64,000 bases of DNA from Puniceicoccus vermicola (GTDB lineage: Bacteria; Verrucomicrobiota; Verrucomicrobiia; Opitutales; Puniceicoccaceae). A program made the position numbers and the translations under genes. Location: positions 1-64,000 of the forward strand of contig NZ_JACHVA010000075.1 in assembly GCF_014230055.1 (NCBI RefSeq). The letters are read 5' to 3'. Positions within the stretch are counted from its first letter, which is position 1. Every line of letters begins with the position of its first letter. The notes below the pieces were generated by a model, which was not told the origin of the DNA, made no database searches, and worked only from the letters and a program-made list of their open reading frames with translations. Below, piece after piece: positions 42,377 to 55,799 of the stretch.

Positions 42377-42452
42377 GCCGGAATAGCTCAGCTGGTAGAG
42401 CAACTCATTCGTAATGAGTAGGTCGTCGGTTCAAATCCGACTTTCGGCTCCA
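42377..42452 (+). tRNA. tRNA-Thr(CGT), integration site of the mobile element
   Basis: 76 nt with encoded CCA. Acceptor GCCGGAA / TTTCGGC, D arm AGCTCAGCTGGTAGAGC, anticodon arm CTCAT-TCGTAAT-GAG with anticodon CGT, T arm GTCGG-TTCAAAT-CCGAC. The last 47 nt are also the left attachment core of the 13.3-kb element, so the gene was rebuilt by the incoming DNA and stays intact. Confidence 0.96.
42406..42452 (+). repeat. attL core (47-bp direct repeat, within tRNA-Thr)
   Basis: From CATTCGTAATGAG in the anticodon arm to the terminal CCA. Identical to 55753-55799. The sequences outside the core differ on both sides. Confidence 0.95.
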
Positions 42453-42457
42453 GGCGT

Positions 42458-42493
42458 AAATCCCTTTTTAATAGCGGCTTGTGGGATTTTTTC
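42458..42493 (+). terminator. Terminator-like hairpin after tRNA-Thr
   Basis: AAATCCC and GGGATTT arms with an 18-nt loop, followed by a T-rich tract. It is supplied by the element; the original chromosomal terminator is now at attR. Confidence 0.6.
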
Positions 42494-42630
42494 TTTTCTT
42501 GTTTAGATTCCTTCTTTTTTGAAGGTGCCCGGAAAGTGCCTATTTTGAAAAGGCTGCTGAAATCCGATATGTGGGAAAAATTTTGGTGTCGATCCCTTCC
42601 GACCGTTCAGCTTTGCTTTCTGACGAACAC

Positions 42631-42663
42631 GAAAAAGCCCCGCCCGATAGTCGAGCGAGGCTT
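42631..42663 (-). terminator. Rho-independent terminator for the 45-aa gene
   Basis: On the minus strand, AAGCCTCGC pairs with GCGGGGCTT around an 11-nt loop, followed by TTTTTC. It lies 24 bp after the stop of the minus-strand small gene and supports that gene being expressed. Confidence 0.8.
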
Positions 42664-42686
42664 CTGCTTCGAAAGTCGCCTTAAGC

Positions 42687-42824
42687 TCAAAGGTTGTCTT
42701 TCACGCTTTCCCAGAGGTCCGTAACACCTGCTTGGAATGCCTCTAAGACTTTTTTGCGAACATCTCGGAAGTGGCACTCGGTACCAAGAGTCCATTGCTC
42801 TTTGCTAAAGTCCGCGCCGCACAT
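42687..42824 (-). CDS. Small element protein of 45 residues, unknown function
   Basis: I choose ATG 42824 (MCGADFSKEQWTLGTECHFR) because GGGAG lies 5-9 nt upstream. The frame is open to 42878 but that extension has no ribosome binding site. The peptide is acidic-basic mixed with a possible amphipathic helix (DVRKKVLEAFQAGVTDLWES). No family was recognised. An intrinsic terminator follows on its own strand, which makes it a credible gene. It sits alone at the tRNA end of the element, divergent from the cargo genes. Confidence 0.6.
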   Translation of the reverse strand: MCGADFSKEQWTLGTECHFRDVRKKVLEAFQAGVTDLWESVKDNL

Positions 42825-42956
42825 TCTCACTCCCGAAAAAATGGATTGGAATTGCCCCAATTTCTCGTTTTTGTGCATTTATGACTAATGTACGCTGAAT
42901 TTTCTCCGGAAGTGAAAAGCTTGCAGTCTACTCGCGAATTCAGATAACTCGTTTCT

Positions 42957-43049
42957 ATGAGCGATGACCCGAAACCCCCGCCGCCCCCAGCACCTATTCC
43001 TGCCCCCACGGGAAACCCTGGAACACGTGATCTAAATCCGACACGGTAG
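42957..43049 (+). CDS. 30-residue proline-rich leader ORF
   Basis: ATG 42957 opens MSDDPKPPPPPAPIPAPTGN, ending ...LNPTR at TAG 43047-43049. The stop lies 2 bp before the GTG start of the membrane protein gene, and the sequence around the stop supplies that gene's Shine-Dalgarno (GGTAGGAG). It could be a short protein or a leader peptide that couples translation to the next gene; polyproline runs stall ribosomes unless EF-P is present, so a translation-sensing role is conceivable but unproven. Confidence 0.5.
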   Translation: MSDDPKPPPPPAPIPAPTGNPGTRDLNPTR

Positions 43050-43051
43050 GA

Positions 43052-43450
43052 GTGAGTTCGAACAAAGAGATCTGGGAAAGCTATACTCGATACACCAAAG
43101 ATCTTACCGAGTACTCACGGAAACTGGGATTCGCCGGCGTTGCGATATTTTGGATTTTGAAGAATCCAGACGGTTCATTTTCGGTCCTCATGAAGATCGC
43201 TTTGATTTTTTTCATCCTCTTTTTCGTGTTCGATATAGCTCAGTCCTATGTTGGATCTCGTCGGCGTCTAGAATGGAACCAGTCCGAAGAACAAAAGATG
43301 TTCGCGAAGTATGAGACGATCGATGGCGAATACCACTGGCCCAGAGAGCTTGATATACCTGCGCAACGATATTTCCGGCTCAAGGTAGGAGCATTGATTT
43401 CTGCTTACTCCCTAATCGTTGCGGAAATGATGCTTCGGTTCGTCCAATGA
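43052..43450 (+). CDS. Small membrane protein, element cargo
   Basis: 132 residues from GTG 43052 (MSSNKEIWESYTRYTKDLTE). Hydrophobic segments lie at about 25-37 (weak), 46-68 (strong: LMKIALIFFILFFVFDIAQS) and 108-129. The soluble loop between TM2 and TM3 is charged (SRRRLEWNQSEEQKMFAKYE). I know of similar small proteins in genomic islands, but no function is established that I can name. The GTG is supported by GGTAGGAG just upstream. It faces the tRNA-distal direction, opposite to the element's core genes, and is followed 53 bp later by a second membrane-anchored protein; the two probably work together. Confidence 0.75.
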   Translation: MSSNKEIWESYTRYTKDLTEYSRKLGFAGVAIFWILKNPDGSFSVLMKIALIFFILFFVFDIAQSYVGSRRRLEWNQSEEQKMFAKYETIDGEYHWPRELDIPAQRYFRLKVGALISAYSLIVAEMMLRFVQ

Positions 43451-43503
43451 AAAGATTAAAGAACCTTTAACAAGATTCGACACCATAAAGCCCCCCATAG
43501 AGC

Positions 43504-44097
43504 ATGGCTAGTATTCTCACCATCCTGAAAGATATCTTCTTCTTGGTTGGCGCCATTGCGGGGCTCTTGGCTCTATTTCGGCAATTTGTAGAGAGCAAGT
43601 TCAAGAAAGACCTCGACCGACTGAATTCTATACTCTCCAAATTTAGTGCTAGTGAAATAATGGACCTTGAGTATTTGATCGGAGGAGCCCGTAAAATTCC
43701 TGACAGTGTCTTTTCCCCCTTCGAGAATCTCGCGAAACAAAGGAAGATCAGCTGGAACGAAGTTTGTTTTACAGGACCATTACGGAAAGAAATTCAGTCG
43801 GAACTTGAATGCCTTGATCAGGATTACCTTTCTCTCAGAGAATTCATTCAGACACCCCACTGGGATGGATCGAACTGGGACTTTAGATACTATTGGACCT
43901 TCGAAAAGAATAGCTTCTCAGAACTGCAAGGCAAAGGCTCCTATCCGGAACATCTAAAGATGGCCGAAGAGGCTGCAGAACGACTCCGAAAAAGATTTCA
44001 AAGGGTCCAGGCTCTGGCTGACCTTCACTTCTATCAAGCTATTGCTTCCGGTTTCACCGTTCCTCGATTGTTCCGAGCACGAGGGCTAGAACTGTAA
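43504..44097 (+). CDS. Membrane-anchored protein, element cargo
   Basis: 197 residues. A single N-terminal hydrophobic helix (ILKDIFFLVGAIAGLLALFR, about 7-26) is followed by a soluble, charged, mainly helical domain (KKDLDRLNSILSKFSASEIM; later HLKMAEEAAERLRKRFQRVQ). The domain is not recognised. Second gene of the plus-strand cargo pair. Paired small membrane proteins at the end of a mobile element, oriented against the core genes, are a common arrangement for phage-exclusion or abortive-infection modules, so a defence role is a reasonable hypothesis but not shown by any motif. Confidence 0.72.
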   Translation: MASILTILKDIFFLVGAIAGLLALFRQFVESKFKKDLDRLNSILSKFSASEIMDLEYLIGGARKIPDSVFSPFENLAKQRKISWNEVCFTGPLRKEIQSELECLDQDYLSLREFIQTPHWDGSNWDFRYYWTFEKNSFSELQGKGSYPEHLKMAEEAAERLRKRFQRVQALADLHFYQAIASGFTVPRLFRARGLEL

Positions 44098-44149
44098 ATT
44101 GAATAGAGATCTACCCAAGCAGCAACATTGCCCGGGCGTGGACCTTCTT

Positions 44150-44228
44150 CCTTTTCGGGTGCGAATACTGATTCCACCGGAGTTTCATTCCGATCGATGT
44201 ATCTGCGAACGCAGCGGATTTCATGAAG
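44150..44228 (-). pseudogene. Duplicated 3' fragment of the RHH-like gene
   Basis: On the minus strand one frame reads EIRCVRRYIDRNETPVESVF, matching IDCVRRYIDRNETPESAFAP at the end of the gene at 44849-45097. The similarity covers roughly 75 bp (about 44150-44225 against 44864-44938). An AGGAGGTGAGCTTC sequence ahead of an out-of-frame ATG at about 44224 could start a 37-residue peptide, but I regard the segment as a leftover duplication. Confidence 0.6.
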
Positions 44229-44229
44229 C

Positions 44230-44505
44230 TCACCTCCTCAGCTTTTTCTTGATGTGGATCGCCCGTTTCGCCGCATCCACGGAGGAGGTCAGAAACTTCC
44301 GGTCTTTCCCGGGGTTGAGGTATCCCCCATCGACATAATACTTGCGAAACGTCGGGTAAGAAACCCCGCAACGGCGGGCGGCTGCCGCTCCCGAGAGACG
44401 GGCCGGCGGCTGGTGCAGTGCCTCGAGGATCGCATTCTGAGTCTCCTTCAGCGACTGAAGCTCCGACAAGATCATTCTCTCCCCTTTAGTCATCCCTTCA
44501 TTCAT
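44230..44505 (-). CDS. Small DNA-binding protein with HTH (excisionase/MerR-like)
   Basis: 91 residues. An N-terminal helix (ERMILSELQSLKETQNAILE) precedes a winged or MerR-like HTH: ARLSGAAAARRCGVSYPTFR, then KYYVDGGYLNPGKDRKFLTS. The lysine-rich tail (KRAIHIKKKLRR) fits DNA binding. It overlaps the start region of the upstream gene by 4 bp (44502-44505), so it is the last gene of a three-gene regulatory operon. It may act as a transcription regulator or recombination directionality factor of the element. Confidence 0.72.
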   Translation of the reverse strand: MNEGMTKGERMILSELQSLKETQNAILEALHQPPARLSGAAAARRCGVSYPTFRKYYVDGGYLNPGKDRKFLTSSVDAAKRAIHIKKKLRR

Positions 44506-44852
44506 CGGTATTCCTCCTGATCTGTGACTTCGATCTCAATTTTCCTTAGAAGGTCCGGTGCGACCTTTGCGGCAGGTCCTGCTGCCGAAACCATCCATTG
44601 TGCAATATCACAAATGGGTTTAGTTCCTAGGAATTCAGGAAATTCAGAAAAGGGTATCTGAAACCAGTGCGCTACCTCCATACTGTTGCGGTGCGGCCTT
44701 CCTCGGAAGGTTACTCTCAGGATCTTATCTTTCCACGCTCTTCTTAATGGCTCTGCACCTGGATAAACTGGTTCGTCTTCGTCGGACCAACGAGCAGGCG
44801 TTTTTAGAATTTTCCCCCGGAAAAGTTGTCGTAGCCTCTGTTCACGCTTCAT
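44502..44852 (-). CDS. Element protein of 116 residues, unknown function
   Basis: Basic N-terminus (MKREQRLRQLFRGKILKTPA), then a central part with aromatic residues (MEVAHWFQIPFSEFPEFLG) and an acidic end (LRKIEIEVTDQEEYR). No family recognised. It overlaps both neighbours by 4 bp, which is good evidence for a translated, coupled gene in the small regulatory operon 45097-44230. Confidence 0.7.
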   Translation of the reverse strand: MKREQRLRQLFRGKILKTPARWSDEDEPVYPGAEPLRRAWKDKILRVTFRGRPHRNSMEVAHWFQIPFSEFPEFLGTKPICDIAQWMVSAAGPAAKVAPDLLRKIEIEVTDQEEYR

Positions 44853-45097
44853 GCTGCTTTCTCCTTCTCAGGTGCGAATGCTGATTCCGGAGTTTCGTTC
44901 CGGTCAATGTATCTGCGAACGCAATCGATTCCATGGGCAATCATGATTTCCCATTCACCTTTTTCAGCTTCTGTGGAGAGCCTCAGACCTTCCATGAGGT
45001 AAGTCTTAGCGGCTTCTTCTCGCGTGATCCGCAGTTCAGCAGCGATGCCATCAAGAACGGCGGCTTGTTCATCAGTCAGCTCGATTCCGATTTTCAT
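44849..45097 (-). CDS. Ribbon-helix-helix-like small protein
   Basis: Start at ATG 45097 (MKIGIELTDEQAAVLDGIAA), 82 residues, preceded by AAAGG. The first 40 residues follow a CopG/RHH pattern: a strand (IGIELTDEQ), then two helices (AAVLDGIAAELRITREEAAK and TYLMEGLRL). The C-terminal tail ends in a Lys/Glu-rich stretch. RHH proteins are dimeric DNA binders, often autoregulators in mobile elements. It heads the operon with the 116-aa and HTH genes. A fragment of its 3' end is duplicated at the end of the same operon. Confidence 0.65.
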   Translation of the reverse strand: MKIGIELTDEQAAVLDGIAAELRITREEAAKTYLMEGLRLSTEAEKGEWEIMIAHGIDCVRRYIDRNETPESAFAPEKEKAA

Positions 45098-45282
45098 AGG
45101 GTATACCTTTACAATAGACCGCCCGCGCTGCTCAGGGTTCTGAATAGGCCACATACGGCCTCCCCAAGCGAACACGCGGGCGGAAAGTGTATTGGAATAT
45201 TGTATGTGTTGAGGTTCAGAATTCCCCGGGCCTTTACGGCTTAAGATTAAATAAGCACACTATTCAGTATTGTCGCAAGCAC
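45098..45282 (-). promoter_or_regulatory. Promoter region of the small regulatory operon
   Basis: AT-rich sequence without a gene between the RHH-like gene and the terminator at 45283-45324. The promoter elements are not certain enough to name. Confidence 0.35.
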
Positions 45283-45324
45283 AAAAAAGGCCGGCGGGGT
45301 AAATGAGGAAATCCCCCGCCGGCC
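45283..45324 (-). terminator. Strong intrinsic terminator of the element's long operon
   Basis: GGCCGGCGGGG pairs with CCCCGCCGGCC (11 bp) around a 14-nt loop. On the minus strand it is followed by TTTTTT. It ends transcription of the operon 51108-45452 before the regulatory operon begins. Confidence 0.92.
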
Positions 45325-45451
45325 TATCCTTTTCTTTCATGAACCCTATATCAGAAGTATGGAAATTCTAGTAATGTATCTTTGATACAATTACGTAATT
45401 GTGCGTAATGCTCGTTTTTGGCTGCCATCGATGCAGGAGTTTTGCCTCTCT

Positions 45452-46405
45452 TCACCCGCTGATGGGCTCGTTCGTCTTCAGGTGTTCTGGAATTGGCCAA
45501 GGCTCGGGCGGGGCAACATAGAAATAGGCATTAGAGCTTTTGCTGATTTCTTGGTTGAGCACAGCGGTGACATCAATCGGGATGTCTTCCCCGTCGATAT
45601 CCGCGGATTCCTGGGTTGAGATATTCACACCAAAGGAAATGTTGCCGAGCTGCCGAGCTCCTGCTCCGGGAACAAAGTTGGTCCCGTCTTTAATGACTTG
45701 GCCTTGATAAACTTCAAAATCGACGGTGATGTCTCCAGTTCCGATCTCGCCATACCAGAACGCCCTCAACCGGAAATCGATTGCGGCATCCGGCAAGTCT
45801 TCGCGGAGCTTCTTGAGGTCCACGCGTACGGCCTCTTCGCCGATCTCCAAGGTGTTATCGCCTGCCCAGAGAAGATAATCGGTTTTGCGACTCCCATCTC
45901 CGACTGGTTCTCCTCTACTCCAACCAACGTCCTGCCCGAAATCGCTGGCTCCGGGAGTCAAATTGGCTGTGCGCGTATCGAGGTCACGACCCCCGACGTC
46001 TTCCCAGGAATAGCGGATGACAATATAATCAGCGTCCTTGATCAGCTTCGTCACATTCACGTTGCAGCGGGCCATGGGAAACATCTTCTTTCCGCCGGCT
46101 TTCCACTGTGCTGGAAGATCCCCGGAGTAGAGGAGGGGCCCGCTTCTTTCGGCGATCACCGCGCTGGCCTCCTCGCAATCCGTGTTCTTGGCACTGTGGA
46201 GAGATTTCATCGGGTATGAGGCTTTGGTTCTCCAGCCCTCGCTGGTGATCTTCACGATGGCTCCCTTACTCCCACCGGCCTGCATGCTTCCTCCGGTAGC
46301 TCGTGGGTAGTCGATGGCCCGCAATACCTTCTTCGAATCAAACCCTGCTGCTACGAGGATGTCAGCGAGCTTGACTCGTGCTTCCGCTGCGCTTTTTCGA
46401 ATCAT
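45452..46405 (-). CDS. 317-residue element protein, possibly structural
   Basis: Starts MIRKSAAEARVKLADILVAA, overlapping the end of the tape-measure-like gene by 4 bp. A helical N-terminus (about 1-35) precedes a beta-rich body. A region about 130-250 contains VGGRDLDTRTANLTPGASDF, then DYLLWAGDNTLEIGEEAVRV and FRLRAFWYGEIGTGDITVDF. This 'DLDTxT ... WAGDN ... E' pattern is loosely like TerD-type beta-sandwiches, but I cannot assign a family. Position after a tape measure suggests a tail-tip, spike or virion-associated protein (inference). Last gene before a strong terminator. Confidence 0.7.
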   Translation of the reverse strand: MIRKSAAEARVKLADILVAAGFDSKKVLRAIDYPRATGGSMQAGGSKGAIVKITSEGWRTKASYPMKSLHSAKNTDCEEASAVIAERSGPLLYSGDLPAQWKAGGKKMFPMARCNVNVTKLIKDADYIVIRYSWEDVGGRDLDTRTANLTPGASDFGQDVGWSRGEPVGDGSRKTDYLLWAGDNTLEIGEEAVRVDLKKLREDLPDAAIDFRLRAFWYGEIGTGDITVDFEVYQGQVIKDGTNFVPGAGARQLGNISFGVNISTQESADIDGEDIPIDVTAVLNQEISKSSNAYFYVAPPEPWPIPEHLKTNEPISG

Positions 46406-48033
46406 TGAAGTTTACTTTCCAACCGGCCCAGGCGCTTTTCCATGGAGACAATTGCTTTCTGCCAAGCCGGTTCTCCCTGGGCTTTGTTACCGCCGCCTCC
46501 GCCGCCTTTCTTCATGTCCTTGGTCTTGGACTTCTGGCGATCCTTCTCAAGGGCATCCCGCATCTCCTCATCGGTGAAGAACCGGCCTTTCTTCCCTTCG
46601 CGGAATTCGCGGAACCCCTTGCCATCGGGGGTGTTCTCACGCTGGAAATACAAATCTTCCTCCTGTTCGGCACGGGCTTTGACCGCTTCGCGAAGATTCT
46701 GATCGCTGGATAGATCGCTTGTGGCGGCTCCACCGGTCGTGGCCGTGCCCACACTCCCACCTGAGCCCCTGGCACCGGCGGTTGCTGGATCATTTAAGGA
46801 GAGAATTCGATTCCTAGTTTTTTCAAGTTCCAACTGCTTCTCGGTCAGCTTCACCCCAATCTCCGCTCTTTTGGCTGAGTCCTCTTCCAGACGCCCTTTT
46901 TCTCTAAGCATCCGGATCTCTCCCTCAAGTTTCTCCGCCCGCTTATTCTCAAGAGCTATCACAGCCTTCGTTCCGCCCTCCTGTTGAGCTCTGATCATTT
47001 CCCGATCAGCTTCCAGCTTTGTAACCCTAGCCAGATTCTTGCGGACGATTTCCAGATTGTCAGAGATCTCCTTATTGCGACGTTCCCGGGCCTCTTCAAT
47101 AGCATCGTGAAGCTTAGCCAACTGGTTCTGCATTTCCATTTCCTCACGTTGGCGAATCTTCTCCAGAGTAATTTCCCGCTCCTTTTCCTTCAGTTCCTTT
47201 GCCTGTTTGATCTGCTCTGCTCGAAGCCGATCCTGTTGAGCCCACTCAAGGCTTTGCTCTGCAAGTTCGGCCCGCATTTCGGACAAACTCAAAGTTGTAT
47301 CATCGATGTCCCCGGTGAGTTGATTGACGATATCACCGAAGGATTCCCCCGCATCGGCAGCAAATTTGAATGTCTTCGCAATGTAGGACACTCCATGGAG
47401 TCCGATCTCGGTGAGTTGATCTTTCAATTCCTCCGCATCCTTGATCATTTCACTTTCAATACTCAGTTCGCTCATATCATTGCGAAGCTTTCGGAGGCTT
47501 TTGCTACCATCCTCCAGGACATTCACAAATGCAGCACCTTCCGAATCAAAGAATTTGAAAGCCAGCCGAAGTCGGTCACTCTCTTCTCGGGTGTCTCTCA
47601 GGCCGTCTGCAACCTCGTAGAGGATATCATCGAATGATTTGGCATTGCCTTCTCGATCCCGCAACTCAATGCCCATCTCTGCGAACGCTTTTTTCGCTTC
47701 TCCGGATCCATTTCTAGCCTCGGCAAGCCGACGATTGAAACGTTGCAGGGCCATATCCGTCGTGCCCGCTTCAATGCCAGCCTTTTTTAGACCAGCTGCA
47801 CGAAGCTCCTGAAGCGCGTCAGTAGTGATCCCGATCGTATCCGCTTTCTTTCCGATGCGGTCCATGTAATCGACGAGGTCGCCGAGCTTACCTACTGCGA
47901 AACCGGCTGCGGCCCCTGCGAAGAGTCCTTTCATCGTCCGGGCCAATCCCTTCCCCCGTTTCTCAACCTTGTCGGCCGCGCGGTCAAAATTCCGGGTGTT
48001 CCCTCCGAAATGTGCAATGATCGAATCGTTCAT
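46402..48033 (-). CDS. Phage tail tape-measure-like protein
   Basis: 543 residues. The N-terminal part matches tape-measure proteins: FDRAADKVEKRGKGLARTMK, a Gly/Ala hydrophobic stretch (GLFAGAAAGFAVGKLGDLVD), then DRIGKKADTIGITTDALQEL and RNGSGEAKKAFAEMGIELRD. About 255-390 is a long coiled coil (ELKEKEREITLEKIRQREEM onward), and the end is Gly- and Lys-rich with a last short coil. Tape measures set tail length at roughly 0.15 nm per residue in siphoviruses, so this would predict a short tail of about 80 nm. No other tail tube, tip or baseplate gene was recognised. Confidence 0.78.
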   Translation of the reverse strand: MNDSIIAHFGGNTRNFDRAADKVEKRGKGLARTMKGLFAGAAAGFAVGKLGDLVDYMDRIGKKADTIGITTDALQELRAAGLKKAGIEAGTTDMALQRFNRRLAEARNGSGEAKKAFAEMGIELRDREGNAKSFDDILYEVADGLRDTREESDRLRLAFKFFDSEGAAFVNVLEDGSKSLRKLRNDMSELSIESEMIKDAEELKDQLTEIGLHGVSYIAKTFKFAADAGESFGDIVNQLTGDIDDTTLSLSEMRAELAEQSLEWAQQDRLRAEQIKQAKELKEKEREITLEKIRQREEMEMQNQLAKLHDAIEEARERRNKEISDNLEIVRKNLARVTKLEADREMIRAQQEGGTKAVIALENKRAEKLEGEIRMLREKGRLEEDSAKRAEIGVKLTEKQLELEKTRNRILSLNDPATAGARGSGGSVGTATTGGAATSDLSSDQNLREAVKARAEQEEDLYFQRENTPDGKGFREFREGKKGRFFTDEEMRDALEKDRQKSKTKDMKKGGGGGGNKAQGEPAWQKAIVSMEKRLGRLESKLQ

Positions 48034-48039
48034 CAGAGT

Positions 48040-48390
48040 CTAGATCATGAGCTGAGCAATTTCTTGTTCGTAGGCCTCAATCTTCAGGAGGATATCCCGC
48101 TTTTCGGCTTGGATCTCTTCGATCAATCTCCGATTTTGGCTAAGGCCATTTTCGATTTCGCCAATGATCAAGTCGGTGAGCGCTTCCAGCGATTTTTTTG
48201 GAAACTTCACTGCGACTGAAATGGCGATGTCCTCGAATCCGGTTCGTGGGTTGAAGCGGGCTAGCAATGCATCGAATTTCGCAGCCATTGTGCGGCCCTG
48301 GCTCATCGAGCTGTTTGCCGTTTCTTTCACGAGTGCAGCAACCAGAACCGAATGGCCCTGGTGTTTGTTGGAAAAATCTTTCAATTCCAT
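48040..48390 (-). CDS. Element protein of 116 residues, unknown function
   Basis: Mainly helical: SVLVAALVKETANSSMSQGR, a middle with FNPRTGFEDIAISVAVKFPK, and a C-terminal coiled-coil-like helix (RRLIEEIQAEKRDILLKIEA). It ends 6 bp before the tape-measure-like gene. In tailed phages this place is often held by tail assembly chaperones; that role is only suggested by position. Confidence 0.65.
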   Translation of the reverse strand: MELKDFSNKHQGHSVLVAALVKETANSSMSQGRTMAAKFDALLARFNPRTGFEDIAISVAVKFPKKSLEALTDLIIGEIENGLSQNRRLIEEIQAEKRDILLKIEAYEQEIAQLMI

Positions 48391-48399
48391 GATTGATCC

Positions 48400-48687
48400 T
48401 CAGCTATTTCCCGGACTGGGGAACACATTGGCGAGTTGTCGATCAATTGCCCGGCATGCTCGCGAGATTATAGGGTCATCTGCGAATTCCAGAGACACTT
48501 TGCTTATTGCCAAACGTGGTTCCAAGGTCTCCTCCAAAATTGCTTCAAACTTGCTGAGTGCTGGCTCTGGGAGGCATCTCACGATCATCTTGCCAAGAAC
48601 ATCAGAAGAGAAATCGACCATCTCCTGATTGAGTTCTTCGGTCGGATTGGATCCACAATCCGGATTCTGTGGGCGACGATCACTCAT
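48400..48687 (-). CDS. Element protein of 95 residues, unknown function
   Basis: Helical, acidic. Contains EELNQEMVDFSSDVLGKMIV and LSKFEAILEETLEPRLAISK. No family recognised. Overlaps the upstream gene by 8 bp and precedes the 116-aa gene by 9 bp in the packed operon. Confidence 0.62.
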   Translation of the reverse strand: MSDRRPQNPDCGSNPTEELNQEMVDFSSDVLGKMIVRCLPEPALSKFEAILEETLEPRLAISKVSLEFADDPIISRACRAIDRQLANVFPSPGNS

Positions 48688-48952
48688 TTGCCAGACTCTT
48701 GTAACCCTCGTAAAAGTTCAGTGCTTTCAACACATGTTCGGCGTCGACGGTTTTCTCCTGATCTAACAACTCGCAGTAGAGCGCGGTGAGAACATCGTCC
48801 AGTTCGTCGAATTCCTCTGTGAGCGCCAAGAATCGACCATTTTGAGAAGGAGGGATGTAGGAAACGACCCTTTCTAAGATCTTTGCCAACAGCTCTCGAC
48901 CGCGTTCTTGCTCGAGGAAAGTATAATCTTCTGGTTGTTTTTGTTTTCTCAT
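48680..48952 (-). CDS. Element protein of 90 residues, unknown function
   Basis: Acidic and helical (RGRELLAKILERVVSYIPPS, FDELDDVLTALYCELLDQEK). No family recognised. It begins 3 bp after the stop of the 185-aa gene and overlaps the next by 8 bp. The tight packing supports expression. Confidence 0.62.
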   Translation of the reverse strand: MRKQKQPEDYTFLEQERGRELLAKILERVVSYIPPSQNGRFLALTEEFDELDDVLTALYCELLDQEKTVDAEHVLKALNFYEGYKSLANE

Positions 48953-48955
48953 ATC

Positions 48956-49513
48956 CTAGAGGTGGCGTTTCGCGAGGCTGGAGACGATCGATTCGGAAGA
49001 CCGACCCGGATAGAACGACGAGAAATTGAGGCAGCGCTCAACGAATCCTTTGGTGCTCCCGGGAGTCGCTTCCGCGGCCGCCTTTACCGCGACCAATCGA
49101 GCGTGAACTTTGGAGGCCTCGAATTCTGATTCAGTTCGCTCCACACTTTCGAGATGCTCAATGGCGTTGGGATATTCTTCCAGACCCGAAAACTTCCCTT
49201 CCGCGGCCAGATACCTCTTGTTTTCGGCCTCAACTTTCTTCGCCCGCCGATTATGCAAGCGGGACACTTGAGCAAGAATCTTGTCAACGGTGCGGCTGGG
49301 ATAGAGCTTGGCTAGCACGAGTCCCTGCTCAATGTCCTCAGTGTCGTGATTCTTGACAGCCTTGATCGCATCTACGACCTGGGTCATTTTGTTCGCAAGA
49401 CCTTTGGCTTTTGCCTCTCCTTCAGCGTAGAAGGTTTGGCGTAGATCGGCAATCGCTGATGGATGATCGACCAGTTTCTGAGCCGAAGATGTAAGTGATA
49501 GTGGTAGTTTCAT
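48956..49513 (-). CDS. Element protein of 185 residues, unknown function
   Basis: Helical and basic. Two segments look related: LAKLYPSRTVDKILAQVSRL in the middle and FSSFYPGRSSESIVSSLAKR at the end, each ending in a helix with basic residues. A charged helix (HNRRAKKVEAENKRYLAAEG) lies between. No family recognised. Overlaps the upstream HTH gene by 4 bp. Confidence 0.65.
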   Translation of the reverse strand: MKLPLSLTSSAQKLVDHPSAIADLRQTFYAEGEAKAKGLANKMTQVVDAIKAVKNHDTEDIEQGLVLAKLYPSRTVDKILAQVSRLHNRRAKKVEAENKRYLAAEGKFSGLEEYPNAIEHLESVERTESEFEASKVHARLVAVKAAAEATPGSTKGFVERCLNFSSFYPGRSSESIVSSLAKRHL

Positions 49514-49713
49514 AGTTTCTTGTTCCGCTGCATGGCGGCTCGCTTGATTGTTTCAGGTAGGAAAAGCTTCCGCCGTGGGCAGACAAAATCCGGAGTAATC
49601 TCACCGGTAGACACCATCCGATGAGCCGTTCGCAAAGAAACTCCGAGAATGAAGGCCGCACCTGAAAGCGTATGCAGGTGAACCGGCTTGGGCTGTGGGT
49701 TATTATGTGCCAT
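49510..49713 (-). CDS. Small HTH protein (AlpA/excisionase-like)
   Basis: 67 residues. VHLHTLSGAAFILGVSLRTA followed by HRMVSTGEITPDFVCPRRKL is a MerR/Xis-type winged HTH, with the recognition helix in SLRTAHRMV and a wing afterwards. The lysine-rich end fits DNA contact. It lies in the middle of the long operon and may regulate it. Confidence 0.7.
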   Translation of the reverse strand: MAHNNPQPKPVHLHTLSGAAFILGVSLRTAHRMVSTGEITPDFVCPRRKLFLPETIKRAAMQRNKKL

Positions 49714-49743
49714 TTCCTTTAGGTTCGGGGCGTCAACCGGAGG

Positions 49744-49992
49744 TTAGAAACGGTGTCCGGAAAGACGACGGCGGCGGGAAATCGGAACGTACTGTGTCTG
49801 CTCCTCACCAGCCTTCGGCAACTGCGCCTCAGCTTCCTCCAGACGCTTGGTTAGGACTTTGAACATTGCCCTGATTGCCGCTTTTGTTGGGAGTCGCCCC
49901 GTCTCATCGCGGGGAATGTCGAGTCGCCGGATCTCCCAGCGCGTAAGGCCTGAAAGCGATTCCAGTTCCTCAAGTGTGCTGTACTCTTGCAT
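49744..49992 (-). CDS. Small protein with HTH and coiled coil (terminase-small-subunit-like?)
   Basis: 82 residues. The N-terminus TLEELESLSGLTRWEIRRLD looks like an HTH. It is followed by KAAIRAMFKVLTKRLEEAEA, a coiled-coil-like helix, and a basic tail. This layout resembles Nu1-type small terminase subunits, but many small regulators share it. I see no large terminase partner. Confidence 0.55.
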   Translation of the reverse strand: MQEYSTLEELESLSGLTRWEIRRLDIPRDETGRLPTKAAIRAMFKVLTKRLEEAEAQLPKAGEEQTQYVPISRRRRLSGHRF

Positions 49993-50040
49993 AAGTTATT
50001 GAAGCGGAAACGGAAGCGGAACTTTTCAGGATAGAATCTC

Positions 50041-50505
50041 TCAAAAACGACCGTCGGCGCGCCCTACCTCTGGAAAATTTTTCTCAAAAAAGGACCCGTG
50101 ATTTTCTCTCATCCAGGCCAAGAGGCGCTCTGTGTCGGTCCCCCCGGGGGGTAATTTTTCGAGAATTGTTGTCCGGTGCTTGCCGATTGCTTGCTTGCTA
50201 ACTCCAAGCCTGGATGCCAGGGAACTGAGACTTTCCCGCCTCTCAGTCAGTATGTGGTGAAGCGCAGCAAAACTCGGTGAGAGGCCGGCCAAGCCGACCA
50301 GGAAAGCCTCGATGGCCTGCAGTGTGTCGCGTCGAGTTCGTTCGGCAGCGATCTCATCAAGCAAGCCTACCAGCTCCCACGCTGTTTCTTCCCCGACTTC
50401 TTGAATCAGGAGATCCATGGCCGGACGGCCCCGTGCATCGTGCACGAGGCGTCCGAATCCTGGACCATCGAGGGCGCCGTTTTCGAATAGTATCTGACGC
50501 TCCAT
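50041..50505 (-). CDS. HTH protein resembling sigma region 4
   Basis: 154 residues. The first two thirds are helical (DLLIQEVGEETAWELVGLLD, RRDTLQAIEAFLVGLAGLSP). A C-terminal HTH reads RRESLSSLASRLGVSKQAIG followed by KHRTTILEKLPPG, similar to sigma-70 region 4 or RNA polymerase-associated activators. It could activate the element's late operon. Starts 3 bp downstream of the 199-aa gene stop. Confidence 0.62.
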   Translation of the reverse strand: MERQILFENGALDGPGFGRLVHDARGRPAMDLLIQEVGEETAWELVGLLDEIAAERTRRDTLQAIEAFLVGLAGLSPSFAALHHILTERRESLSSLASRLGVSKQAIGKHRTTILEKLPPGGTDTERLLAWMRENHGSFFEKNFPEVGRADGRF

Positions 50506-50508
50506 CGA

Positions 50509-51108
50509 TCAGAGATTTGACGAGGCAACCTCCTCAACTTTAGCAATGAATTCGCGGAGCGTTGCGGCGGCCACGTTGTGATAGCGTTGACGAGAGAAGG
50601 GAGGTTTAACCGGTGCGAGTGCCTTGCTCGCCAAGCCGAGACTCTTCAGGATGCGACTCAGATTCATACCTACTGATTCATCGAGCCTTGTGGGATCGAG
50701 ATCTTCAGCCATCTCATGAGCACGTTTCTCGGCGAATTCATGTTCCACTTTCGACGCCCTTGAGATGGCCTCGTTAACTGCCCCGTCTCTGACTCCCCAC
50801 AATGCGCGCTTTGTCTTCTCAAGGTGGCGACGAGCGGCGACGAGTGCGCTCTCGGCCCCGATCCTGGAGGAAGTGGCGTTACCGATTTCACTCGGTTTTC
50901 CGTCCTCGATCGTGGCGGCTTCTTTTTGTTTTGCTTGCGCGAGTGCGCTCTCGGCCTTTTCGAGTCGAGTGGTCGCGTCGGCTTGATCCTTCTCGAGCTT
51001 TTCGAGCTGATCGAGTTCTCCAGTGAACCCGACATAGCCGGGTGTCCGATGATTGAAGTCCGAGTAGGAGATTTCCTGGTCGAACGGATTTTTGGTTTCT
51101 GTGGTCAT
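50509..51108 (-). CDS. Coiled-coil element protein of 199 residues
   Basis: First gene of the long operon. A long coiled coil covers about 30-75 (LDQLEKLEKDQADATTRLEK onward), with further helices about 85-130. A globular C-terminus includes PFSRQRYHNVAAATLREFIA. No family recognised. A scaffold or DNA-binding role is conceivable. Confidence 0.65.
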   Translation of the reverse strand: MTTETKNPFDQEISYSDFNHRTPGYVGFTGELDQLEKLEKDQADATTRLEKAESALAQAKQKEAATIEDGKPSEIGNATSSRIGAESALVAARRHLEKTKRALWGVRDGAVNEAISRASKVEHEFAEKRAHEMAEDLDPTRLDESVGMNLSRILKSLGLASKALAPVKPPFSRQRYHNVAAATLREFIAKVEEVASSNL

Positions 51109-51185
51109 TGTCTTATTTCTTTGGTTTGACTGAACTCCGACCGAACGCGGTCAGAGTGTGAAAATTTAATTTCAAGATCTGCATG
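51109..51185 (-). promoter_or_regulatory. Presumed promoter of the long operon
   Basis: Short AT-richer stretch between the candidate origin and the 199-aa gene, including a small inverted repeat CCGACCGAAC-GCGGTCAG-like sequence near 51140-51165. The promoter elements are not certain. Confidence 0.3.
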
Positions 51186-51303
51186 GGCAGGGGGATCAGT
51201 ATCACCGGCCTTATATATAAGGCCGGGTGATCCTTGATACCGATCCCTGCCCGGTGGGTTCATGATCCCAGAATGATCCCGAAATGATCCTTGATCCTTC
51301 ATC
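51186..51303. other. Candidate replication origin: palindrome plus iteron-like repeats
   Basis: A perfect 22-bp palindrome (half-site CCGGCCTTATA, 51206-51227) is nested in a larger inverted repeat (GGGCAGGG...CCCTGCCC, 51186-51253). Beside it, three 11-bp direct repeats begin ATGATCC at 51263, 51274 and 51285, with further GATCC units on both sides. The block sits immediately downstream of the primase-helicase gene. Iterons next to a replication protein gene are the usual layout of origins in plasmids and satellites. Confidence 0.6.
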
Positions 51304-51307
51304 ACTT

Positions 51308-53242
51308 CTAAGACCGCTTTCTCTCTGAGTTTTTGGCCGATTCGATCTCCTGACGTGCAGTGATCCCTAGGCCGTAGAGTCCGGTGGCTGCGTTGAAGCT
51401 CAATGCCGATGAGGGATCATTGCCTTTTTGATCCCGATTTTTACAAATCCAGCGCTTCGCAGTAGCTTCAGATTTGGCTGTATGTTTGCAGAATGCTTCG
51501 ACGAGATCGCCGTGTTTCCAGCTCTTCCATGGATCGCCGGCGGCAAGTTCAACGATGATCGCGCGGGCTTCCTCCGCTTTGGCATCTGCCTTTGCAGCCA
51601 TCGCGCTTTCAACCTGCACATGCATCCCAGCCTGATCATTCCACTTCATGCGGATTCCCTGTAACTTTGGAATCGGGGCCCGGCGGGTTTTCGCAGTGTA
51701 AATCACTGTCGTCTCTCCATCCGGTTCCCGCTCCATGCGGAGCACGGTCTCAGATTTTCGCTCGAGATAGCTGCCGAGGTGCCCGCGCATCTTCTCACTG
51801 CCCGGGTTGAAATGGAGAATAGTCCAGATCACAGTCCGGAACTCGTTCGCAAGACGGTGAAGCTCTGTGACGACACCCTGAACCTCTCCGGGATCGTTGA
51901 CGTCGTTACAAACGTCGCCGACTCCATCGAGCCACACACTGTGGATCTCATCGAAAGATTTCTGAGCATCGGCAAGAATGACTCGGAGAGCGTAGAGGAT
52001 CCTTCCCGGATCGGTTCCAACCATCGGAAACGAGAGGAATCGCTTTGGCATGCTTTCGAGTCCGGCCCTACGTAGCGAACGCATTCCGACGATTTCAAAT
52101 GCATCTCCTCGAGACTGTTCCGAGTCGATATGGACGATCGCACCTTTGCGCTGCGGGGATTTCCAGCCCAGGACACTCTCTGGAGAAAGGCCAGCGGCAA
52201 GACCACCGACCAAAAGAGCCGTTTTCCCGACCCCCGGCGCTGCGGTCAGGGTGCAAAGGTTTCCCGGGTGCGACACCTCAGTACCGGAAAACTCGTAGAG
52301 GCAAGGTTCTGGAGGAGGAGGATTGCTCGGATCAAATCGAATTTCTTTCAACCACTGGCGGACCTCATCTCCTTCCTCTACTTCCTCGTAGGGCGCGGTC
52401 GACTTTATCATCTGAAAAAGTGACTCGCTTGATCCTCCTTCCTTTTCAAGCCAATCGCTTACGTCACCTTTCGGCAATTTCGACGGTGCAAGGATGCGAA
52501 CTTCCTTTGCTTTTCCGTAAATGGATCTCGCTACGCGAAGAGCATGCTTCTCACCGGATTCATCGTTGTCACGAAGTATCACGACGAACTTTCCTTGGAA
52601 TAGGTCCGCGAAGCTATCGTTCCACTTTTCGGCGCCTCCGCAGTTCGTAGTCGCCGCTATTTTGAGTTTTGCTAGGGTGTCGGCGTCCTTTTCTCCTTCG
52701 ACGATGCAGACCGAATTTTCGTCTTTCCATTCCGGCAGCCGATAGAGGACAGGTTTCACACCTCGCAAGCCCCATCCTTTAGGAGTCCCCTGGACGAATT
52801 CCTTTTCACGCTCTGGATGCTCGAGACGAGCAACGAAATGAAGATCGGATCCGTGTTCGTCCTTGTAATGGTAGCGAGCCGTTTCCTTGTAGCCTTCCGC
52901 GATCAGAGTGTCATACCTGCACCGGCTTACCTTGCGTTCAGGTTTCGAGCCTTTCTGAACTTGGCTTTTTGGTTTCAGCTTGAGCCATTCGCCCAGAAAA
53001 TTCTGCGCTGCTTGTATATCTCCGTCGAACTTTGAGACCGCAGCCAGATCAATGATTCCCCCGCCATTTTTGTCCACGTGGTCGAACCATTCATCTTCGT
53101 TGATCGCGACATTGGGCCCATCTCCACCTCGCCAAGTGGCCGGGATCCGACTGTTCGAATCTACCTCAAGCCCCAGAATCTCCGCGGCAAATCGAACGCA
53201 ATTGCCGCGTTCTTTGATTTCCTCGAAAGAGTAGAAGTTCAT
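51308..53242 (-). CDS. Primase-helicase (TOPRIM plus RepA/DnaB-like ATPase)
   Basis: Start at ATG 53242 (MNFYSFEEIKERGNCVRFAA), whose A overlaps the TGA of the upstream gene; 644 residues. The N-terminus (about 1-90) is primase-like but lacks a zinc-binding cysteine set. The TOPRIM domain is at about 176-265: VCIVEGEKDADTL with E182 and LRDNDESG with D225/D227. The RecA-like ATPase follows: TAAPGVGKTALL (Walker A, K340) and HSVWLDGVGDV (Walker B). The C-terminus may hold a winged helix. It should prime and unwind the element's own DNA. The candidate origin lies just after its stop. Confidence 0.88.
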   Translation of the reverse strand: MNFYSFEEIKERGNCVRFAAEILGLEVDSNSRIPATWRGGDGPNVAINEDEWFDHVDKNGGGIIDLAAVSKFDGDIQAAQNFLGEWLKLKPKSQVQKGSKPERKVSRCRYDTLIAEGYKETARYHYKDEHGSDLHFVARLEHPEREKEFVQGTPKGWGLRGVKPVLYRLPEWKDENSVCIVEGEKDADTLAKLKIAATTNCGGAEKWNDSFADLFQGKFVVILRDNDESGEKHALRVARSIYGKAKEVRILAPSKLPKGDVSDWLEKEGGSSESLFQMIKSTAPYEEVEEGDEVRQWLKEIRFDPSNPPPPEPCLYEFSGTEVSHPGNLCTLTAAPGVGKTALLVGGLAAGLSPESVLGWKSPQRKGAIVHIDSEQSRGDAFEIVGMRSLRRAGLESMPKRFLSFPMVGTDPGRILYALRVILADAQKSFDEIHSVWLDGVGDVCNDVNDPGEVQGVVTELHRLANEFRTVIWTILHFNPGSEKMRGHLGSYLERKSETVLRMEREPDGETTVIYTAKTRRAPIPKLQGIRMKWNDQAGMHVQVESAMAAKADAKAEEARAIIVELAAGDPWKSWKHGDLVEAFCKHTAKSEATAKRWICKNRDQKGNDPSSALSFNAATGLYGLGITARQEIESAKNSERKRS

Positions 53243-53562
53243 CAGTTCTTCTCTTCGTTTCGGTTGTCCGAGAATCCCACCCAGGGACCATGGGCGACTC
53301 CCATTGCCGAAATCATCTCGAGAACGATCGGTAGCGGCCCCTCCATATATGCCCACCCTTGATCGTCGGTCTTGCCGAATCGGGAAAATGCTTCTGCGCG
53401 AAGTCCTTTCGGGAAAACAGCGTGGGAGGTCTTTCCAATCCGCTGAGCCCGGTCTTTAAGTTGGTCCCGGACACCGGCACGAATCGCTCGCAGTTCAGCT
53501 TCGGTATCGTCGAGGATCACCGAGACGCCATTCGGAAGAGTCTGCGCCTTCATTTCCGGCAC
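53242..53562 (-). CDS. Element protein of 106 residues, unknown function
   Basis: MPEMKAQTLPNGVSVILDDT starts a beta-then-helix segment (EAELRAIRAGVRDQLKDRAQ). The C-terminus contains GPLPIVLEMISAMGVAHGPW. No family recognised. Its TGA stop overlaps the primase-helicase ATG, so the two are translationally coupled; a replication accessory role is likely by position. Confidence 0.68.
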   Translation of the reverse strand: MPEMKAQTLPNGVSVILDDTEAELRAIRAGVRDQLKDRAQRIGKTSHAVFPKGLRAEAFSRFGKTDDQGWAYMEGPLPIVLEMISAMGVAHGPWVGFSDNRNEEKN

Positions 53563-53659
53563 CTCCGAGATCTACCGCGGCCCGCGGAAACCCGTTCGAA
53601 CAAACGAAGTGTGCTGCCGGAGAATCGACCTTTCTTCGGGGCTCGGTTCCTGAGACGCT

Positions 53660-53869
53660 TCATCGAGCACCTCCCGTCGTCAGACGGTCGAAGGCGGCGT
53701 CCGCTTTTACTACTGGAATTCTAACGCATCTTGGGCTTAGCCGGATTACCGGGATGATCCCAGCTGAGATATAGTTGTCGAGAGCTCGGATTGAAAACGA
53801 ATACCGTTCGGCGGCTTCGTGCCTAGTGATCAGCTTTTTGGCTGTTTCTGCATGTGCTTGCGCGTTCAT
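53660..53869 (-). CDS. Excisionase-like HTH protein
   Basis: Start at ATG 53869 (MNAQAHAETAKKLITRHEAA), 69 residues. KLITRHEAAERYSFSIRALD and NYISAGIIPVIRLSPRCVRI follow the MerR-like/excisionase pattern: an HTH, then a two-strand wing with a conserved arginine. It lies two genes from the integrase, where recombination directionality factors are normally found. Confidence 0.75.
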   Translation of the reverse strand: MNAQAHAETAKKLITRHEAAERYSFSIRALDNYISAGIIPVIRLSPRCVRIPVVKADAAFDRLTTGGAR

Positions 53870-53900
53870 GACGCACAAGTCTCTTTATTTTTCTATTATG

Positions 53901-54383
53901 TCACGGGGACTTGTTTTCGGGTTTTTGTCCCGACCGCTGACGCCGGTGTTTGATGGTGTCCCCGCAGACGCCTAGTCCCTTGATAATTCCAAGAACATCT
54001 TCCGAACTGACTTGAAGCGTTTCGCCTCTGCTTTCCGCAAAATGAAATTCATCTAGTCTGAGTAACCAACCACGGAATTTTGTGAGAAATCCGGATTGTT
54101 TTCCGTCTCCAAGAGCAAATTCTGGATATCGTGAGATAAACCGAACCAGGGTTTCCGAGTCAGTCGAAGGCATGTCATCCGGATGATCTTTGTCCAGGTG
54201 TCTCCGCGTTAGAATGGCTGCGTTTTTCTTTGACCATCGACTTGCTAGCGTTGCCACTGCTGCTCTTCTCTCGTCTAGACCGAATTCAGGTCTCTCTCCG
54301 GTCTTTGCCTCCCACTTGTCGAGCTCGCGATCTATTTTCGATCGAATGAAGTCAGAAATGGGTCTCCAGTCTCGTGTGCTCAT
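53901..54383 (-). CDS. Integrase-coupled protein of 160 residues
   Basis: Helical and charged: SDFIRSKIDRELDKWEAKTG, ERRAAVATLASRWSKKNAAI, then an acidic and aromatic middle and a basic tail (KHRRQRSGQKPENKSP). No family recognised. Its ATG overlaps the integrase stop by 4 bp, so it is made together with the integrase and may assist integration or excision. Confidence 0.7.
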   Translation of the reverse strand: MSTRDWRPISDFIRSKIDRELDKWEAKTGERPEFGLDERRAAVATLASRWSKKNAAILTRRHLDKDHPDDMPSTDSETLVRFISRYPEFALGDGKQSGFLTKFRGWLLRLDEFHFAESRGETLQVSSEDVLGIIKGLGVCGDTIKHRRQRSGQKPENKSP

Positions 54384-55639
54384 ATTGTAATCGCTTTGAT
54401 TGCGGGGTTCAAAATCTCCGGACTGATCGTCCAGTATCGAAGGGCCTGTGCTTTCTCTACGTCGGTGTCTAGGTAATGACCGAATGTTACATCTGTAGTC
54501 CCATGGCCAAGATTTGCCCTTAAAGCGTCCACGCTTCCGTTGATGCCCCTATGATAGTAAGTTGCGTAGGAGTGTCTTAAAACATCGGCATCAGCTCTTT
54601 CGAATCCGGCGAAGCGTCGGATCACCCGCCATTTTCGTTTCCAGTTAGAAGGTGCAACTTTTCCTTGGCGGTCCTTTGCTGGGATCAGTTTCAACCATGA
54701 CAGCAAGTTGTTCTCAATGTCGACATAGCGACCGGATCGGGTCTTTGAGTCGGTGGTTCGAACTCGAATGGTTTTCCGGTGAAGGTCTATCGCATTCCAG
54801 TAAAGATTTCCGAGTTCGACTTCGGGGCGAAGGCCGGCGAAGGCTAGAATTGCAACGGCACTCCGAGCATCATTGCAGTCGAGACGCAGGTCCTCGGGGA
54901 GGTCCGTATTCTTCGTGTGGTCTTGGCATCCTTGCTTGATTGCCTGGATAACCTGTTCAGGAGTAGCGATCGAGATTCCCTTTTGTGCAGTCGCGAATTT
55001 AGGAATTCCGTCAAAAGGGTTGTTTGTGGCAACTCTGAGCGTCCGAATTGCGTAAGAGAACATTGGCTTCGCGTGAAGGATGGCCGTGTTCCGGCTAGAA
55101 GCGCTAGAAAAGTCTTTTCGGAGGATTTCTTCGATATCGTCCTGGGACACATCTGAGGCCAAGGCAGAATCAAGAACTTCAGCAATCTTCTTTGCGGTCG
55201 ATCTTTTGGTTTGGATGGTGCGAGGAGAGTAGGCGCGGCCCTTCGAGTTTGTAGCGGTCTCAAGATGGTCTTCATATCGCTTCCAAAGGTCCCTCATCGG
55301 CATTGAAGCATTTCGAATATTCTCTCGTTCGGAATATTCGAGAGCGACTTCCGTTAGTGTGACTCCGTAGGGTTCGAGGATCTCGGATGCTCTAGCGGCG
55401 TCTTCTGCGAGACTTGCTTTGATCTTCCGTCCGGCCGTGCCCCATTGATCTGCCATTCCTTTGATCCGGCCTGCCTCGACGTCTGCAGCTCTTTTCGTGT
55501 CGAAGAAGAGACGCTGCCGTTTTCCAGTCGGACTTTTTGCGGCCGGAATACTAATTCGCCAGCGCCCCTTCGATTGATCAAATACCGGAGTCAGAGGCCG
55601 AGCTTTTGGAGCTCTTTTTCGTGCCGCTGATTTCTTCAT
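54380..55639 (-). CDS. int: Tyrosine recombinase (integrase)
   Basis: 419 residues. A Lys/Arg-rich N-terminal arm-binding region (about 1-75) precedes a SAM-like core-binding domain (about 90-210) and the catalytic domain. Active-site residues visible are R271 (FAGLRPEVEL), R355 (DVLRHSYATYY), H379 (ANLGHGTT) and the nucleophile Y389 (GHYLDT). The usual first histidine of the HxxR box is D352 here. It should recombine the 47-bp tRNA-Thr core. Located 114 bp inside attR, transcribed away from it. Confidence 0.95.
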   Translation of the reverse strand: MKKSAARKRAPKARPLTPVFDQSKGRWRISIPAAKSPTGKRQRLFFDTKRAADVEAGRIKGMADQWGTAGRKIKASLAEDAARASEILEPYGVTLTEVALEYSERENIRNASMPMRDLWKRYEDHLETATNSKGRAYSPRTIQTKRSTAKKIAEVLDSALASDVSQDDIEEILRKDFSSASSRNTAILHAKPMFSYAIRTLRVATNNPFDGIPKFATAQKGISIATPEQVIQAIKQGCQDHTKNTDLPEDLRLDCNDARSAVAILAFAGLRPEVELGNLYWNAIDLHRKTIRVRTTDSKTRSGRYVDIENNLLSWLKLIPAKDRQGKVAPSNWKRKWRVIRRFAGFERADADVLRHSYATYYHRGINGSVDALRANLGHGTTDVTFGHYLDTDVEKAQALRYWTISPEILNPAIKAITI

Positions 55640-55752
55640 GATAGGCAGGATAGTGCCTATGGTGCCTAATTTGCAAGCGCTTTAGTGCGGTTCTGTGCAT
55701 TTCCTTGCAATATAAGTTGTTGAAAATCAATAGAGGTCGTTCAAGATTATAG

Positions 55753-55799
55753 CATTCGTAATGAGTAGGTCGTCGGTTCAAATCCGACTTTCGGCTCCA
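55753..55799 (+). repeat. attR core (47-bp direct repeat)
   Basis: Perfect copy of the last 47 nt of tRNA-Thr at 42406-42452. It is the displaced original 3' end of the host gene; the hairpin terminator that once served that tRNA overlaps it. Confidence 0.95.

Follow-up and report, generated by a model that had tools for sequence, protein, structure and literature searches.

The satellites known as phage-inducible chromosomal island-like elements (PLEs), found in Vibrio cholerae, encode a tape measure protein (TMP), a chaperone and hub proteins which are substituted into the tail of the helper phage, and were reported in 2026 as the first satellites with chimeric tails (PMC12987554). In virions, the PLE TMP takes the place of that of ICP1, and the deletion of tmp cuts transduction by 96-99.9%; a putative tmp is listed only in PLE-like elements and in capsid-forming phage-inducible chromosomal islands (cf-PICIs) (Extended Data Fig. 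10, PMC12987554). Satellites of E. coli that carry a capsid, a TMP and a part of the baseplate have also been described (PMC10448857). The present analysis concerns a 64,000-nucleotide stretch of Puniceicoccus vermicola (contig NZ_JACHVA010000075.1; hereafter, the window), in which 13.3 kb of DNA inserted in a tRNA-Thr gene is probably a phage satellite, one that equips the tail of a helper with its own TMP. No report of a satellite in the Verrucomicrobiota was found in the openly licensed literature.

An integrated element without recognisable head genes

The element (Table 1) lies between two identical copies of a 47-bp direct repeat, the second 13,347 bp from the first, and a chance origin of this exact match is negligible. 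The repeat bears out the original prediction, the 3' end of tRNA-Thr(CGT) serving as its first copy, and the tyrosine integrase, the excisionase-like protein and the primase-helicase that had been proposed are backed by matches in Pfam, PHROGs or NCBIfam. The gene packing was also read correctly, as in the stretch that opens with the integrase and closes with e06 (55639 to 45452) some 16 minus-strand genes either overlap or are separated by no more than 97 bp, forming one tightly packed operon. The hairpin that follows e06 has a minimum free energy (MFE) of -33.2 kcal/mol (z -3.46), which none of 200 shuffled sequences equalled, and past it there are three small minus-strand genes (e05 to e03) and then the plus-strand e01 and e02 near the left attachment (att) site, attL.

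In two congeners (G001 and G002), tRNA-Thr is whole and the second repeat copy is absent; the use of flank synteny with these sister species as proof of an empty site failed, since their flanking genes differ from those of the window. A third member of the family, from a related genus (G003), carries one copy of the window's 47-bp sequence on each side of a 4.9-kb element in tRNA-Thr (L198:7145-12039), which has a related integrase and an Xis-like open reading frame (ORF) but no recognised TMP, and it follows that the type of integrase and the site are reused and that the TMP is not obligatory.

The element lacks a complete set of virion genes, while the att sites and its own integrase are present. 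As originally claimed, neither capsid nor portal nor terminase is recognisable, with no credible Pfam or PHROGs match to any of them among the 20 proteins at E<=1; the weak matches were those of the 72-aa Xis-like helix-turn-helix (HTH) protein to a small-terminase HTH (1.5e-3) and of a 185-aa protein to a head protease (0.17). Neither a terminase large subunit nor a tail tube nor a tail chaperone was recognised in the element by Pfam, PHROGs or dedicated tail profiles. Capsid and packaging genes of its own, a trait of the cf-PICIs, were likewise not recognised, the sole large candidate being e06, which is TerD-like.

The tape measure protein and its TerD-like neighbour

The 543-aa TMP is, judging from its matches to known families, genuine: it scores 38.2 bits against TIGR01760 of NCBIfam, where the cut-off is 28.8, and with the PHROGs match (3e-25) this confirms what had been described as a tape-measure-like protein. 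In another locus (L183:9748-10293), a 181-aa N-terminal TMP fragment is found downstream of an apparent toxin-antitoxin pair and a CRISPR array.

The phage-tail link and TerD-like character of e06, the 317-aa protein beside the TMP, had been overlooked. Apart from the integrase, the primase and the TMP, e06 is the only protein of more than 200 aa; it matches tail proteins of crAss-like phages, its relatives are mostly phage proteins, and one of them, in L200 of the same order, belongs to a phage tail cluster in which it is the second gene after a TMP. A single-sequence AlphaFold2 (AF2) run gave a poor model, and refolding with 17 relatives gave a fairly confident domain at residues ~120-280. 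By a second structural aligner, its four top matches had Z scores of 8.8-9.7, two of them being named TerD, with most others at or below 5.3 and an unrelated radial-spoke chain at 8.1; Foldseek returned nothing significant for the model from the PDB, although an independent match to e06 came from a viral model with the name tellurium-resistant-like. That all four top matches are of the TerD type is our own reading, and confidence in the predicted fold is moderate.

The candidacy of e06 as an HK97-type capsid was ruled out by the TerD-like model. The domain is also present in a host protein whose N-terminus is signal-like (L199:9534-10667) and is thus not exclusively viral. Across the IMG/VR loci L283-L316, it occurs in many phage proteins of ~200-1600 aa, and Pfam gave no label in the members scanned; neither e06 nor the primase, each used as a lone query, retrieved anything from IMG/VR.

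These results bear on whether the element might be a small but complete phage whose capsid has diverged beyond recognition. Most of its small proteins have no family and divergent capsids do exist, but the sole unassigned protein above 200 aa is e06, with its TerD-like model, and no gene could accommodate a portal or a large terminase subunit of the usual size (>350 aa), which leaves this explanation scarcely credible.

Related elements and the recurrence of the tape measure protein

Two further elements, both from the same order, were reached through TMP homology: L041, of 9.8 kb, in tRNA-Lys of a metagenome-assembled genome (MAG) of the Verrucomicrobiia (G128), with 57-nt att copies that are 96% identical, and L044, of 9.65 kb, in tRNA-Pro of G082, with 25-bp att copies. 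Each of them has an integrase related to that of the window (34% identity in the case of L041), a full-length TMP and a replication-initiator-like protein, and in neither of them were head genes found by profile, Pfam or PHROGs; L041 also shares the HTH protein e14 with the window element. When phages with this type of TMP were used to build profiles for the candidate tail chaperone and tail tube, these retrieved 69 and 70 members, 0 of which are in the three satellites, and the small-terminase profile matched none of the satellite proteins.

The original prediction had looked to related genomes for the same gene order in tRNA-Thr and for a helper prophage. The combination of integrase and TMP was found in tRNA-Lys and tRNA-Pro, together with a complete-looking prophage in the same genome, whereas the tRNA-Thr element of G003 is without a recognised TMP. 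Extending the search across the family to which G128 belongs (10 genomes) brought up no further element, and the integrase profile retrieved one weak viral locus and one genome locus, the latter being the L041 element again.

In the TMP tree, the three satellite proteins form one clade, with support of 98/95, which also includes the TMP of L043, a phage locus in which terminase, portal and capsid genes are all present. The L044 TMP is 47% identical to that of L043 (857 aa) over 831 aa, and their codon-position differences (0.41/0.34/0.65) are highest at the third position; given both this extended identity and the excess at third positions, the L044 TMP appears to have been kept at full length under selection. 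As a control, loci were considered in which such a TMP is preceded by at least 7 kb of sequence: of these 49, head genes lie on the same strand in 40, and the other nine are, judging from their reading frames, the two satellites along with fragments and phages that are Mu/P2-like or divergent in other ways.

It is unlikely, on this evidence, that the element is a reduced and decaying prophage, which has lost its head and packaging genes and kept the TMP and e06 by chance. The TMP is among the largest phage genes and so likely among the last remnants, and the fragment in L183 does look like decay. In the window, however, both att copies, the integrase, the primase and the TMP are intact and the packed operon ends in a terminator-like hairpin; moreover, three elements in three tRNA genes have kept the TMP while the same neighbours, including the chaperone and the tail tube, are absent, and the satellite TMPs, joined by that of one phage, form a separate clade. 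The preference for a satellite over a reduced prophage is thus strengthened by the intact boundaries, integrase and TMP and by the two further elements with an integrase and a TMP and no head genes. Rather than a leftover, as could have been supposed, the TMP looks like recurrent functional cargo of these elements, because of its recurrence and its clade membership.

The function of such cargo could also be defensive, with the TMP and e06 of a satellite or defence island acting as decoys or dominant-negative parts that poison the tail assembly of incoming phages and protect the host instead of building particles. Interference with tail assembly is known for PICIs and PLE (Tai, PMC11364771; Rta, PMC12987554), and a TMP without a chaperone or a tube could work in this way. 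The L044 TMP is not truncated, however, matching the 857-aa phage TMP along nearly its whole length, and PADLOC gave no credible match for ten element genes, so that this explanation, too, has a low probability. Tail-assembly interference is, in any case, compatible with the life of a satellite.

The distribution of the other genes raises a further alternative, that of an ordinary island similar to the integrative and mobilizable elements (IMEs), in which the TMP-like protein has a role outside the virion. The order-level relatives of the window primase (L036-L040) are located in unrelated elements, one of which has a relaxase-like gene, and the element in L198 combines a related integrase with no phage structural genes. 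Pfam and PHROGs scans of the proteins of the window element recognised no relaxase, however, and the TMP and e06 both indicate phage tails, which makes this alternative very unlikely. In L036:4332-8689, the relaxase-like gene is near the primase related to e17.

Comparison with known satellites

The window element resembles the PLEs in being integrated, in having its own TMP beside another tail-linked protein and no head genes, and in the low identity of its TMP to that of a phage (20% between PLE11 and its helper, as against 23% between the present element and the resident prophage). PLEs use a large serine recombinase as their integrase, whereas the present element has a tyrosine integrase in tRNA-Thr, belongs to a different phylum and has no known helper. 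It also differs in that no chaperone match was obtained, e08 standing in the chaperone position without homology, and in that this type of TMP cluster is found with lambda-type head genes. The arrangement fits a reduced device of the PLE type, in which the main operon would close with the TMP and a single tail-linked protein.

The TMP without a full tail set is a likeness to the cf-PICIs with a putative tmp and to the E. coli satellites (PMC10448857), although those encode capsid genes and this element has none. In its size range, tyrosine integrase, AlpA/Xis-like HTH protein and own primase-helicase, it is similar to PICIs, including the Staphylococcus aureus pathogenicity islands (SaPIs), and to P4-like satellites. 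In contrast with the latter, there is no Pfam or PHROGs match to Psu, Sid or Delta and the primase is of the Toprim type; in contrast with the former, no homologue of the SaPI capsid modifier or packaging proteins was recognised, and a TMP and e06 are carried. Phage-inducible chromosomal minimalist islands (PICMIs; PMC10803314) share the reduced gene set with no recognised capsid-remodelling gene, but lie beside fis in the Vibrionaceae, unlike this TMP-bearing element in tRNA-Thr.

Proposed mechanism and candidate helper

The satellite that we propose would integrate at tRNA-Thr through its own integrase, and would be excised with the predicted Xis-like factor and replicated by the predicted primase-helicase. 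A helper tailed phage, either temperate or virulent, would then have to supply the capsid, the packaging motor, the tail tube and the baseplate, because the element makes neither head nor terminase, while the element would contribute its own TMP and the TerD-like tail-linked protein, both encoded where the main operon ends. By analogy with the PLEs, the satellite TMP would most likely serve to replace that of the helper in the tails of satellite particles, such that the tail length and the ejection module become the satellite's own. We infer helper dependence, packaging, induction and chimeric tails.

A prophage that lay beyond the view of the original prediction is present in the same genome (G000:C82:577-25264; L034/L035). 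It is complete-looking, lambda-type and 24.6 kb in length, located in tRNA-Gly with a 34-bp repeat, and has a GpA terminase, a portal, a coat-like protein and a 575-aa TMP; the one GpA terminase match and the one portal match of the genome are both within it. Given that it has no other link to the satellite, this prophage is a candidate helper only, and a virulent phage could serve equally. Were it the helper, the difference of 32 residues between the two TMPs, scaled from the PLE figures, would make the satellite tail only ~3-5 nm shorter than that of the prophage.

Several points weigh against the proposal of a TMP-replacing satellite. The frequency of the TMP among such elements is biased upward, since the satellites were found via TMP homology, and some elements that have a related integrase carry no TMP (L198, L079). 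The low identity of the two TMPs means that the resident prophage may not be the helper, and DNA common to both as a packaging site was sought and yielded chance-level matches only; neither a cos or pac site nor a packaging-redirecting protein was recognised in the element. No tail chaperone was found in it, though PLEs carry one.

A broader and more tentative possibility is that the elements of the Verrucomicrobiota represent an independent lineage of satellites that hijack helpers by TMP replacement, in which a lone TMP, with no chaperone or capsid genes, may suffice to claim helper tails and may provide an ejection module of their own, evading exclusion directed at the helper TMP or reaching other hosts. 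What would be new here is the lineage and the phylum for satellite TMP replacement, without a capsid or a recognised chaperone, as the principle is already known from PLE. The occurrence of TMP-bearing elements lacking both in another phylum suggests that tail takeover via the TMP evolved more than once, and such elements would be a minimal case for how a satellite TMP gets chosen over that of the helper.

Feature map and minor observations

Table 1. Features of the element in tRNA-Thr, with positions in the window.
Feature	Position	Strand	Evidence
tRNA-Thr(CGT), integration target	42377..42452	+	ARAGORN; Rfam tRNA 71.6 bits
attL, first 47-bp repeat copy, 3' part of tRNA-Thr(CGT)	42406..42452	+	repeat search
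e01, 132 aa, hydrophobic segment	43052..43450	+	Pfam/PADLOC no match; PHROGs none <0.1
e02, 197 aa, no significant family match	43504..44097	+	Pfam, PHROGs, PADLOC, NCBIfam
e03, 91-aa HTH protein	44230..44505	-	HTH_23 0.004; MerR-like PHROG 0.0075
e04, 116 aa, no family	44502..44852	-	
e05, 108 aa, possible small regulator	44849..45175	-	phrog_4085 (unknown function) 0.0046
Intrinsic-terminator-like hairpin after e06, 12-bp G+C-rich stem and U tract	45277..45336	-	inverted repeat; folding
e06, 317 aa, phage-tail-associated, TerD-like domain at residues ~120-280	45452..46405	-	phrog_24956 6.9e-26; predicted structure
Tape measure protein, 543 aa; stop overlaps e06 start	46402..48033	-	PHROG tape measure 3e-25; TIGR01760; PhageMin_Tail 2.1e-10
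e08, 116 aa; in phage tail-chaperone position, no chaperone homology	48040..48390	-	
e09, 95 aa, no family	48400..48687	-	
e10, 90 aa, no family	48680..48952	-	
e11, 185 aa, no family	48956..49513	-	
e12, 67-aa excisionase/AlpA-type HTH	49510..49713	-	phrog_597 1.5e-4; phrog_4691 2.1e-3
e13, 82 aa, no family	49744..49992	-	
e14, 154-aa HTH protein, homologue of L041 12321-12707	50041..50505	-	32% identity; phmmer 3e-8
e15, 199 aa, no family	50509..51108	-	
e16, 66 aa, possible small ORF	51105..51305	-	
e17, primase-helicase, Toprim and RecA-like (AAA_25), 682 aa	51308..53356	-	phrog_239 6.9e-30; Pfam; NCBIfam
e18, 106 aa, no family	53242..53562	-	
e19, Xis/AlpA-like HTH, 72 aa	53660..53878	-	PHROG excisionase phrog_66 7.7e-5
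e20, 160 aa, no family; start overlaps int stop	53901..54383	-	
Tyrosine integrase, 419 aa	54380..55639	-	Pfam Phage_integrase 9.5e-7; NCBIfam XerA-type 2.3e-11; PHROGs
attR, second 47-bp repeat copy	55753..55799	+	repeat search

The primase e17 probably starts at 53242, where an alternative ATG gives an ATGA overlap with the e18 stop and a protein of 644 aa. The sole plus-strand genes, e01 and e02 (43052-44097), are possibly cargo or conversion genes, given their position beside attL. Finally, a diverged duplication of ~75 bp (83%) is found after e03 (44149-44225) and at the end of e05 (44862-44935), which may be a regulatory repeat or a recent duplication.

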